Shown here: positions 36,477 through 39,178 of the stretch, piece after piece
Layout of the letters: every line of letters begins with the position of its first letter
How positions within the stretch are numbered: position 1 is the stretch's first letter
Assembly (NCBI RefSeq): GCF_021117405.1
Contig: NZ_CP088251.1
Coordinates: forward strand, 3,271,001 to 3,335,000
Reading direction: 5' to 3'
DNA from: Frateuria edaphi
GTDB taxonomy: Bacteria; Pseudomonadota; Gammaproteobacteria; Xanthomonadales; Rhodanobacteraceae
Length of the DNA: 64,000 bases
Made by a program: the position numbers and the translations under genes
Notes under the pieces: model-generated
Databases searched by the model: none
What the model was told of the DNA's origin: nothing
The model's input: the letters and a program-made list of their open reading frames with translations, nothing else

Positions 36477-36682
36477 GCGGGGCGTCAAGGTTCAGCTGCG
36501 GGAAAGCCATCCTCGCATGCGTCCTGCCACCGGCAAACGCTTGCCTGGTGCGGCCTGCCGAGCCTCCCGCAACACAGGCGACCATACGCCCAGGTGTGGA
36601 AGCAGACGACCGGGTGTTCACGCACGGCTGCAAATGCTGGCCTGGATCGCCCCATTCCGCGGGCGTCTCGGGGAGCTTACGC

Positions 36683-39178
36683 ATGCCATCGAAGTTCATG
36701 CCGTCGATCAGACACACCGCCTTCCGCCTCTGCGCCATCGCCGCGGGCCTCCTCGCGAGCGGCGTCGCGCTCGCGGACGCCCAGCTCGACCCGCAACTGC
36801 TGACCCAGATGGGGAGCGCGGCCAGCACCGATCCGCTGCAGGTGGTGGTCACCTACAAGCAATCGGGCCCGGTCACGGCCGACCAGCTGGCCGTGCTCGA
36901 GTCGCTCGGCATCACCCGCGGCCTGACCATGCACACGCTGCCGATCGCCGGTGCACTGGCGACGCCGGCGGAGATTCGCGCACTGGCCCAGCGCGACGAT
37001 GTGCTTTCGATCTGGGCCAACCGCCGCCTGACCTACCTGGACGCGGAGGCGAACGGACTTTCCGGTGCCGCGCGCACGGTGGCCAATCCCGCCGATTACC
37101 ACCGCGCCATTCCGTTCAGCGGCAAGGGCGTGACGGTGGAGATCAACGATTCGGGCATCGACGCGACGCACATGGACCTGCAGTACGGCACCCACGTGGT
37201 GCAGAACACGCAGGCCGTGACCAACCTGGCCGCGCTCGACACGATGCTGCCGATCACTTACCTCGAGGGCGTGCCGAACAGCGACTGGGGCTCGGGCCAC
37301 GGCACGCATTGCGCCGGCATCGTGGGCGGCAACGGCGCGCGATCCAACGGACTGTACGAGGGCGTGGCGCCCGGCGCCGACCTGGTCGGCTATGGCTCGG
37401 GCGCCGTGCTGCTGGTCCTCGATGCGGTCGGCGGCCTGGACTACGCGGCCACCCACCAGTTCGGCTTCCGCAACCCGATCCGCGTGGTCAGCAACTCGTG
37501 GGGCAGTTCCGGCAAGTTCGATCCGGCCGATCCGGTGAATGTCGCCTCATACGAGTTGTACAAGCGCGGCATCGTCAGCGTGTTCGCCGCCGGCAACGAT
37601 GGCCCTGGCGAGGATACCCACAACCCCTACGCGCAGGCGCCGTGGGTGATCTCGGTGGGCGCCAGCGAGAAGAATGGCGTGCTGACCGACTTTTCCTCGC
37701 GCGGCAAGCGCGGCGAGAGCGGCACGTTCGCCATGCCCGACGGCCGGCAGTGGACCTACGTCAACGAGCCGACCATCGTCGCGCCGGGCGTGGACATCAT
37801 CTCCACCCGCGACAGTACCGGCACGCTGCCGGCGCTGGCCGCGCAACAGGATGCCGAGGTCATTCCCGCGGCCTACCTGCCCTTCTACACGATCATGAGC
37901 GGCACCTCGATGGCTACGCCGCATGTGGCCGGCATCGTGGCGCTGATGCTGGAGGCCAACCCGGGCCTCACGCCGGCACAGGTGCGCGACATCCTGGAAC
38001 GGACCGCCACCAACATGACCGGGCGGCTGGGCTGGGAGGCCGGCGCGGGCCATGTCAACGCCTACACGGCGGTGGCCGAGGCGGCCGGCATACGCGCTGG
38101 CTTCGGCGGCACCGTGAACGCGCTGCACAGCTTCAACAGCAACGCGCTGGTCGTGCCGGGCGCCCCGCCGATTCCGTTCTCGGTCGATTTCGCGCCGGTG
38201 GGCCCGGTCGGCGAGCAAAGTTTCACGGTGGGGCCGGAAGTCGCCTTCGTCAGCGCCCGCGCCACCATCGGCACCAATACCCTGGCGCTGGTGCTGATCG
38301 ACCCCGACGGCGAGGAGTACGGCTCGGCGATCGCCTTGCCGGTGCTCGGCGACACCGTCACCACCGGCGCGCCGGCCAAGCCGGGCGTGTGGAGGGTGAC
38401 CGTGCGCGGCATCGGCTCGGTGTCCGGAACCGGCCTCGATCCGCTGAAGGTGACGAACGGATACGGTGCGCCCGGCACGGTCACTGGCGAGGTGAGCTTC
38501 CTCAACAGCGGCGGTTACACCGGCCTGGGCGACATTGCCGCCCATCCGGCGCGCGAGGCGATCGAGTTTGCCGTCGCCCACCGCCTGGTCGATGGCCTGG
38601 CCGATGGCCTCTACCATCCCGACGATCCGCTCAAGCGCCGTGACCTGGCCCGGTACCTGGTGATGGGCGCGAGCGTGCGCCAGTACCTGCCGTTCGACGG
38701 CCAGCCGAGCTTCACCGATCTGGACACCGGCGCCAGCGCCTATCCGTTCGCCGAATCGGCGATCGCCCCCGGCGGCGCATTGCGCGACACCGGGCAGCGC
38801 CAGGACGGCGTGATGAACCTGTGGGGCGGGCAGTTCCATCCGACCGACAGCGTGACGCGGCTGAGCCTCGCCTATTCGCTCGTGCAGAGCCTGGCACTGC
38901 AGGACGAGGCGCGCGCGTTCACCGGGCCGCTGACCGCGTTCTACGAAGGCCAGCGCATTCCTGTCGACGACGCCGGCACGATACCGGCCAACCTGCGCGG
39001 CTACGTGCAGCTGGCACTGGACCGGGGCGTCATCAACGCACGCTTCAAGGTGACCCAGGGTCCGTACGACCTCCAGCCAACGATGCACGCGTACTTCGAC
39101 CCGAACAAGGTCGTCACGCGCGCGGCCTACGCGGTGGCGGCCGGACGCTACATGACGCTGTACCAGAGCGGGCAGTAA
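36683..39178 (+). CDS. secreted subtilisin-type protease with three SLH-like repeats
   Basis: 831 residues. A signal peptide (about 1-32, ending GVALADA) is followed by an inhibitor-like propeptide (about 35-140) and an S8 catalytic domain with Asp156 (INDSGID), His209 (GHGTHC), the oxyanion Asn in AAGND, and Ser409 (SGTSMATPHVAG). About residues 480-600 form a beta-rich region. The end carries three units with the S-layer homology pattern: REAIEFAVAHRLVDGLADGL then HPDDPLKRRDLARYL; SFTDLDTG then FHPTDSVTRLSLAYSLV; and LRGYVQLALDRGVIN then FDPNKVVTRAAYAVAAGRY. The ATG at 36683 has GGGGAG 7 bases upstream. SLH repeats are rare in Gram-negative proteases; here they could bind the envelope or act as a fold module. 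Confidence 0.88.
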   Translation: MPSKFMPSIRHTAFRLCAIAAGLLASGVALADAQLDPQLLTQMGSAASTDPLQVVVTYKQSGPVTADQLAVLESLGITRGLTMHTLPIAGALATPAEIRALAQRDDVLSIWANRRLTYLDAEANGLSGAARTVANPADYHRAIPFSGKGVTVEINDSGIDATHMDLQYGTHVVQNTQAVTNLAALDTMLPITYLEGVPNSDWGSGHGTHCAGIVGGNGARSNGLYEGVAPGADLVGYGSGAVLLVLDAVGGLDYAATHQFGFRNPIRVVSNSWGSSGKFDPADPVNVASYELYKRGIVSVFAAGNDGPGEDTHNPYAQAPWVISVGASEKNGVLTDFSSRGKRGESGTFAMPDGRQWTYVNEPTIVAPGVDIISTRDSTGTLPALAAQQDAEVIPAAYLPFYTIMSGTSMATPHVAGIVALMLEANPGLTPAQVRDILERTATNMTGRLGWEAGAGHVNAYTAVAEAAGIRAGFGGTVNALHSFNSNALVVPGAPPIPFSVDFAPVGPVGEQSFTVGPEVAFVSARATIGTNTLALVLIDPDGEEYGSAIALPVLGDTVTTGAPAKPGVWRVTVRGIGSVSGTGLDPLKVTNGYGAPGTVTGEVSFLNSGGYTGLGDIAAHPAREAIEFAVAHRLVDGLADGLYHPDDPLKRRDLARYLVMGASVRQYLPFDGQPSFTDLDTGASAYPFAESAIAPGGALRDTGQRQDGVMNLWGGQFHPTDSVTRLSLAYSLVQSLALQDEARAFTGPLTAFYEGQRIPVDDAGTIPANLRGYVQLALDRGVINARFKVTQGPYDLQPTMHAYFDPNKVVTRAAYAVAAGRYMTLYQSGQ

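Follow-up and report, generated by a model that had tools for sequence, protein, structure and literature searches.

P0001, the product of an open reading frame in a 64,000-nucleotide stretch of the Frateuria edaphi genome (hereafter the window), is an intact S8 subtilase that ends in a true S-layer homology (SLH) trimer. The fold and the catalytic residues are intact, the trimer is conserved together with the protease across phyla, and much of the site that binds pyruvylated sugars in canonical SLH proteins has been lost. We consider it reasonably probable that P0001 is a secreted protease linked to signalling, with a divergent SLH trimer that acts by something other than pyruvyl-sugar anchoring. 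Annotation often labels SLH domains as wall anchors at first glance, and for this well-conserved cross-phylum family (the S8-SLH family) the label probably misleads. The altered groove residues form a defined set, which makes the anchoring question testable, and in Lysobacterales and Kangiella an unstudied secreted protease and DUF6689, a domain of unknown function, are tied to one signalling locus.

The frame encodes 831 aa plus stop, and the protein runs from a signal peptide (assigned by eye) through a propeptide, the S8 domain and a beta sandwich to the SLH trimer (Table 1). An AlphaFold model of the full protein (800 residues) has a pLDDT of 84 and a pTM of 0.81, and its top structural matches are Tk-SP of Thermococcus kodakarensis (3AFG, E 4.2e-34) and other pro-subtilases. 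These share the propeptide, the S8 fold and the following beta domain with P0001, whereas Tk-SP, at 26–27% identity, is a 507-residue chain with no room for an SLH trimer. A scan found no promoters or terminators around the gene. The start codon is not certain: an in-frame GTG at 36548 (window 36548-36683) would give a protein of 876 aa, and the mechanically called ORFs of several relatives are 863–878 aa long.

Table 1. Features of the S8-SLH protease gene, in window coordinates.
Feature	Coordinates	Strand	Basis and remarks
S8-SLH protease gene	36683..39178	+	start ATG 36683 downstream of a GGGGAG-like ribosome site, by eye
Sec-type signal peptide, residues 1-31	36683..36775	+	predicted by eye from sequence
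Propeptide, about residues 32-130	36776..37072	+	full AlphaFold model resembles pro-subtilisins (3AFG, 3WHI); boundary by eye
Peptidase_S8 catalytic domain, residues 147-455; Asp156, His206, Asn305, Ser409	37121..38047	+	Pfam; invariant 87/87
Beta-sandwich (jelly-roll-like) domain, about residues 471-610	38093..38512	+	model strands; Tk-SP match over 606-611 columns; name inferred
SLH unit 1, residues 614-663; RLVDG loop, Arg652 at TRAE Arg position, invariant Asp637	38522..38671	+	Pfam, alignment, model
SLH unit 2, residues 672-740; inserted loop ahead of Arg726 helix	38696..38902	+	profile, alignment, model
Beta-hairpin linker, units 2 to 3, residues 745-765	38915..38977	+	model
SLH unit 3, residues 766-831; Arg813	38978..39175	+	alignment, model
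Family-specific hairpin inside unit 3, residues 787-805 (QGPxDLQP)	39041..39097	+	kept in A1 and A4; strands in model

P0001 has both the catalytic triad and the profile of peptidase family S8 (Pfam Peptidase_S8, E 2.5e-47); its matches to the NCBIfam S8 models are far under cut-off. All 87 family members aligned share Asp156, His206, His209, Asn305 and Ser409. A sequence-only reading of this DNA had given the triad as Asp156, His209 and Ser409, of which the Asp and the Ser stand, while we take the catalytic His to be His206, the first His of HGTH by subtilisin numbering.

The same reading had proposed three SLH units at the C-terminus, and this is borne out by both profile and structure. Pfam SLH (PF00395) matches residues 617-656 with 38.5 bits against a cut-off of 20.8, and the C-terminal part alone scores 43.9 bits. 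Only unit 1 is recognised in this way, as units 2 and 3 of P0001 give no single-domain Pfam SLH match, and the three boxes that had been quoted lie at residues 645-659, 718-734 and 805-821. All 87 C-termini, the window's included, match Pfam SLH at E values up to 1 (best 2.2e-22). Modelled together with 86 relatives, the C-terminal 232 residues (AlphaFold pLDDT 91.3, pTM 0.87) contain all three units and adopt the three-pronged spindle fold of an SLH trimer, with the Sap trimer 3PYW among the best PDB matches (Foldseek E 1.7e-8) and the SpaA-SLH crystal structure 7SV4 aligned at Z 18.6 and rmsd 2.7 across 162 of 170 residues; Sap is also found by a sequence profile of the region (E 1.1e-5). 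A chance origin of the boxes is ruled out by the Pfam match and the two structural matches. P0001 shares the three-pronged fold (Z 18.6 and 18.4) and an Arg at the TRAE position of every unit with the trimers of SpaA (Paenibacillus alvei) and Sap, at about 22% identity. Unlike them, its family has almost no Trp13, a clear Gly29 in unit 1 only and an invariant Asp at position 28 of that unit; unit 2 carries an extra loop, hairpins stand both inside units and between them, and a subtilase is attached.

In the description of Blackler et al. 2018 (PMC6081394), a pyruvylated sugar is bound by Trp13, Gly29 and Arg43 from neighbouring units, and the TRAE motif is needed for folding too. Across the 87 members, Arg is found at the Arg43 position of unit 1 in 86, of unit 2 in 79 (with Lys in 8 more) and of unit 3 in all. 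The Trp13 position of unit 1 is taken by Pro (72), Ala (12), Ser (2) or Asp (1), and neither candidate position in unit 3 (767 and 770) holds Trp, Phe or Tyr in any member. Near unit 2, Trp occurs at 686 in one member and at 687 in two, none of them a Bacillota row or the window protein, and 84 of the 87 are without it. Tyr687, which adjoins the Trp13 position of unit 2 and is present in 39 of 87 members but in 0 of 31 Bacillota rows, might serve as its stand-in. In unit 1, 68 members retain Gly29 (the remainder being mostly Ser), whereas no member has it in unit 3 (Ala 81, Val 6). In unit 2 an insertion allows two registers, with Gly in a single member each at 702 and 713; the adjacent position 712 has Gly in 35 of 87 members and in 0 of 31 Bacillota rows, and Asn in the window protein, in an alignment that is uncertain around the insertion. 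The groove-lining position 28 of unit 1 is Asp (Asp637) in 87 of 87.

For comparison, a control set of 123 SLH domains was taken from 41 frames, none with an S8 Ser motif, in 18 hand-picked stretches of seven Bacillota genomes. The controls have Trp in 59 and Phe or Tyr in 12 of 108 at position 13, Gly29 in 107 of 116, and Arg43 in 116 of 120; Asp occupies position 28 in three rows. These figures are tilted toward canonical residues by a control profile built from 16 strong canonical hits. By alignment, Trp13, Gly29 and Arg43 do not jointly line the grooves of the S8-SLH family, although the Arg is kept. In the window protein, two of the three grooves each appear to be without two of the three ligand residues, and the third lacks Trp and would place an acid near the expected pyruvate carboxylate if, as its position suggests, the Asp faces the ligand. 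Judged from these alignments, canonical pyruvyl-sugar anchoring of the family is unlikely. Given that all three Args are kept and that unit 1 so often keeps its Gly29, binding of an anionic ligand could persist in one groove (G1).

These residues bear directly on the classical explanation, in which the three Args of the trimer tie the protease to a polysaccharide of the producer's own wall or surface that is anionic through pyruvyl or similar groups. The true SLH trimer fold, Arg43 in all units and Gly29 in unit 1 speak for it, but units 1 and 3 have lost Trp13 and unit 2 almost so, Gly29 is missing from unit 3 and apparently from unit 2, the invariant Asp occupies position 28 of unit 1, and the Args are explicable without a ligand if, as described in PMC6081394, TRAE is needed for folding. 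The distribution of pyruvyl transferases points in both directions. At its cut-off, the CsaB model (TIGR03609) matches in none of 398 genomes of the order (best score 184.8 bits versus 213.1) compared with 4 of 14 control genomes, so that a host CsaB to make the ligand was not found among these 398. PF04230, which covers pyruvyl transferases in the wide sense, occurs in 99 of the 398 and is mildly enriched in genomes with the family (12/27 versus 87/371 others, p 0.02), which favours the classical anchor, as does the PF04230 protein of the window genome, and counts somewhat against a non-pyruvyl reading. That protein scores 45 bits on the CsaB model against 213, and 15 of the 27 family genomes have no PF04230 match, which again speaks against such an anchor. 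On balance we regard it as improbable. Among 29 other family-holding genomes, 23 have at most four SLH matches, 9 of them with PF04230, and six have more than four, five of them with PF04230; two of the 29 hold a family member yet give no SLH match, which is a limit of the profile.

P0001 is the only SLH match in its genome. Relatives of the same build in Xanthomonadales, which the sequence-only reading had put forward as a check, do exist: SLH matches were found in 30 of the 398 genomes of the order and the S8-SLH family in 27, the exceptions being G053, G120 and G400. The C-terminal module occurs in 3 of 258 genomes of the class, the window's own and two others, and the two other matches fall within open reading frames 911 and 845 aa long with S8 motifs (Asp, His and Ser in one, Asp and Ser in the other), on which ground domain shuffling was rejected. 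We also scanned the C-terminal alignment over one genome per named species (84,980 species). It confirmed 267 stretches, and the best 80 come from Lysobacterales, Kangiella, Arsukibacterium, Cohnella, numerous Bacillaceae and related groups, and metagenome-assembled genomes placed in Acidobacteriota and Chloroflexota. Within these best 80 of 267, to which the statement that the module stands behind an S8 domain applies, 76 loci hold 86 ORFs that span from residue 60 or earlier to residue 815 or later, and L092, L106, L126 and L160 are cut or broken copies. The family is collinear at ~825 aa. When 52 proteobacterial rows are compared with 31 from Bacillota, identity averages 60% in the S8 domain, 50% in the SLH trimer, 39% in the propeptide and 34% in the jelly roll.

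What had first looked like an oddity of a Gram-negative is instead a family of proteases that crosses phyla and has a signalling locus linked to it, and its module is also found in monoderm Bacillaceae. The earlier question of whether the protease is held at the peptidoglycan or the fold has a different role leans to another role or another ligand, given the missing ligand residues, the lack of CsaB at cut-off in the 398 genomes of the order and the presence of the module in those monoderms; unmodified peptidoglycan may be a ligand of the trimer. A plasmid origin was considered and rejected, as tblastn of the C-terminus against a plasmid collection gave no match. In the tree, the S8-SLH gene of a cyanobacterial record (L158, titled Tolypothrix campylonemoides VB511288) groups with Lysobacter tabacisoli and is likely contamination by a Lysobacter.

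Many members come from Lysobacter, which is predatory, and predatory Lysobacterales could aim the protease at other bacteria through the SLH trimer. We find this quite improbable, given that members also occur in Bacillaceae and other genera, which are not known as predators, and that most of the canonical polymer-binding residues are missing. A point on its side is that the SLH of endolysin LysBT1 is described as binding Gram-positive and Gram-negative surfaces (PMC12285257).

The strongest rival is an intramolecular role, in which the trimer lies against the jelly roll and the protease, serves as a stabiliser or regulator and has no outside ligand. The full-length pTM of the model suggests a fixed arrangement of the domains, the module stands behind this S8 domain in the loci examined, and an SLH domain raises the thermostability of LysBT1 according to PMC12285257. 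However, neighbouring paralogues without jelly roll and SLH keep their catalytic motifs, which argues that the catalytic domain can do without them, and the SLH trimer is better conserved than the jelly roll, whereas a mere scaffold might have drifted as the jelly roll did. We rate this role as rather unlikely. Thirteen neighbouring paralogues stop behind the catalytic domain and have intact motifs: eight rows from Bacillota, four from Lysobacterales, and L129 of Xanthomonas sp. NCPPB 1128. Three of 16 ‘short’ rows were left out, namely L159_5736, which is cut by a contig end, and two Kangiella rows that are distant S8-PPC proteins. With a midpoint root, the short forms make up three groups nested among the long forms, and with all 16 rows the tree needs five changes between short and long labels. 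This suggests that short and long neighbours form a pair of one free and one directed protease. L080 and L089 have three S8 genes in a row, two with SLH and one with a different C-terminus.

In Pseudomonadota the S8-SLH gene adjoins genes for DUF6689, an FHA-GAF protein, a Ser/Thr kinase-TPR protein (~1100 aa), a short histidine kinase and a NarL-type regulator. The locus was found by clustering of neighbouring ORFs and by searches with Kangiella and Peribacillus proteins; its domains were assigned with Pfam on Kangiella, and the short histidine kinase through NCBIfam in Rhodanobacter. Of 52 proteobacterial loci, 44 are at least 13 kb long, and these hold a DUF6689 homologue in 41, the kinase in 42, FHA in 41 and the regulator in 34, counts in which some loci are cut by short flanks and the kinase figure includes a weak distant match in L156. 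Bacillota loci of at least 13 kb have a ~620-aa histidine kinase and a regulator in 18 of 22. In a separate set from the order, DUF6689 was found in 20 of 27 loci; among the seven that lack it, three are contigs shorter than 9 kb. Counted by genome, DUF6689 is present in 24 of 27 family genomes versus 26 of 371 others (p 1.5e-21, only a guide as the genomes are related). In four of these 24 (G050, G096, G232 and G281, draft assemblies) DUF6689 is on a contig other than that of the protease, and the two may thus be separable. Two S8-SLH proteases frame a compact locus in L139:5851-20357, L066:3270-15188, L070 and L076. A defence system was rejected, with the PADLOC matches read as generic (P0001 to subtilase models, the kinase to kinase models); the regulator has two weak matches to CARF models, and FHA and DUF6689 have none. 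Our literature search gave no paper describing the S8-SLH family, its locus or DUF6689.

Regulation of the protease by the locus is inferred from this neighbourhood. The signal-linked protease that we favour would then work as follows: the NarL-type regulator would drive the divergent S8-SLH and DUF6689 genes, making the protease an output of the sensor system; the zymogen would be exported by Sec and its pro-domain removed; and the SLH trimer would position or stabilise the protease through a contact other than a pyruvylated wall polymer. The other side of this contact could be an envelope glycan that is not pyruvylated and is shared by monoderms and diderms, another protein (a partner or a substrate), or the body of the protease itself. 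More tentatively, we propose a new class of SLH trimer, shared by monoderms and diderms, that may have dropped pyruvyl-sugar binding, with its last groove locked by an invariant Asp-Arg pair, and that may direct a protease which is an output, or perhaps through cutting of a surface signal an input, of the kinase/FHA/DUF6689/NarL locus.

The combination of S8 and SLH is already known in a different architecture: NP_624131.1 of Thermoanaerobacter is described in PMC2605481 as a subtilase with SLH domains, arranged, unlike the S8-SLH family, as Subt-PA-DUF1034-(Big_2)2-(SLH)2. Like P0001, LysBT1 is an enzyme that ends in an SLH region, which in LysBT1 influences stability and the binding of surfaces, but it is an amidase, its SLH is predicted to trimerise between chains, and its binding motifs are reported as conserved (PMC12285257). 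An example of an SLH with a changed ligand is OmpM of Veillonella (PMC10628300), which is likewise a diderm SLH with a ligand other than a pyruvylated polymer; it differs from P0001 in having one SLH per chain, a porin stalk and polyaminated peptidoglycan as ligand.

The window copy stands without the locus. No match to the other locus proteins was found in the 64-kb window and no DUF6689 in the window genome, whose Ser/Thr kinases are only 31–36% identical to those of Rhodanobacter. The sister species G001 has no DUF6689 in its genome and no locus homologue in 19 kb. Since the row closest to the window copy in the tree, Rhodanobacter thiooxydans, keeps the locus, the simplest explanation is that the protease was retained while the locus around it was lost, and without the sensor locus the window copy must be controlled otherwise. 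The solitary gene is under purifying selection, with a dN/dS between the window copy and that of G001 (L061) of 0.12 overall, 0.08 for the S8 domain, 0.20 for the jelly roll and 0.15 for the SLH trimer.
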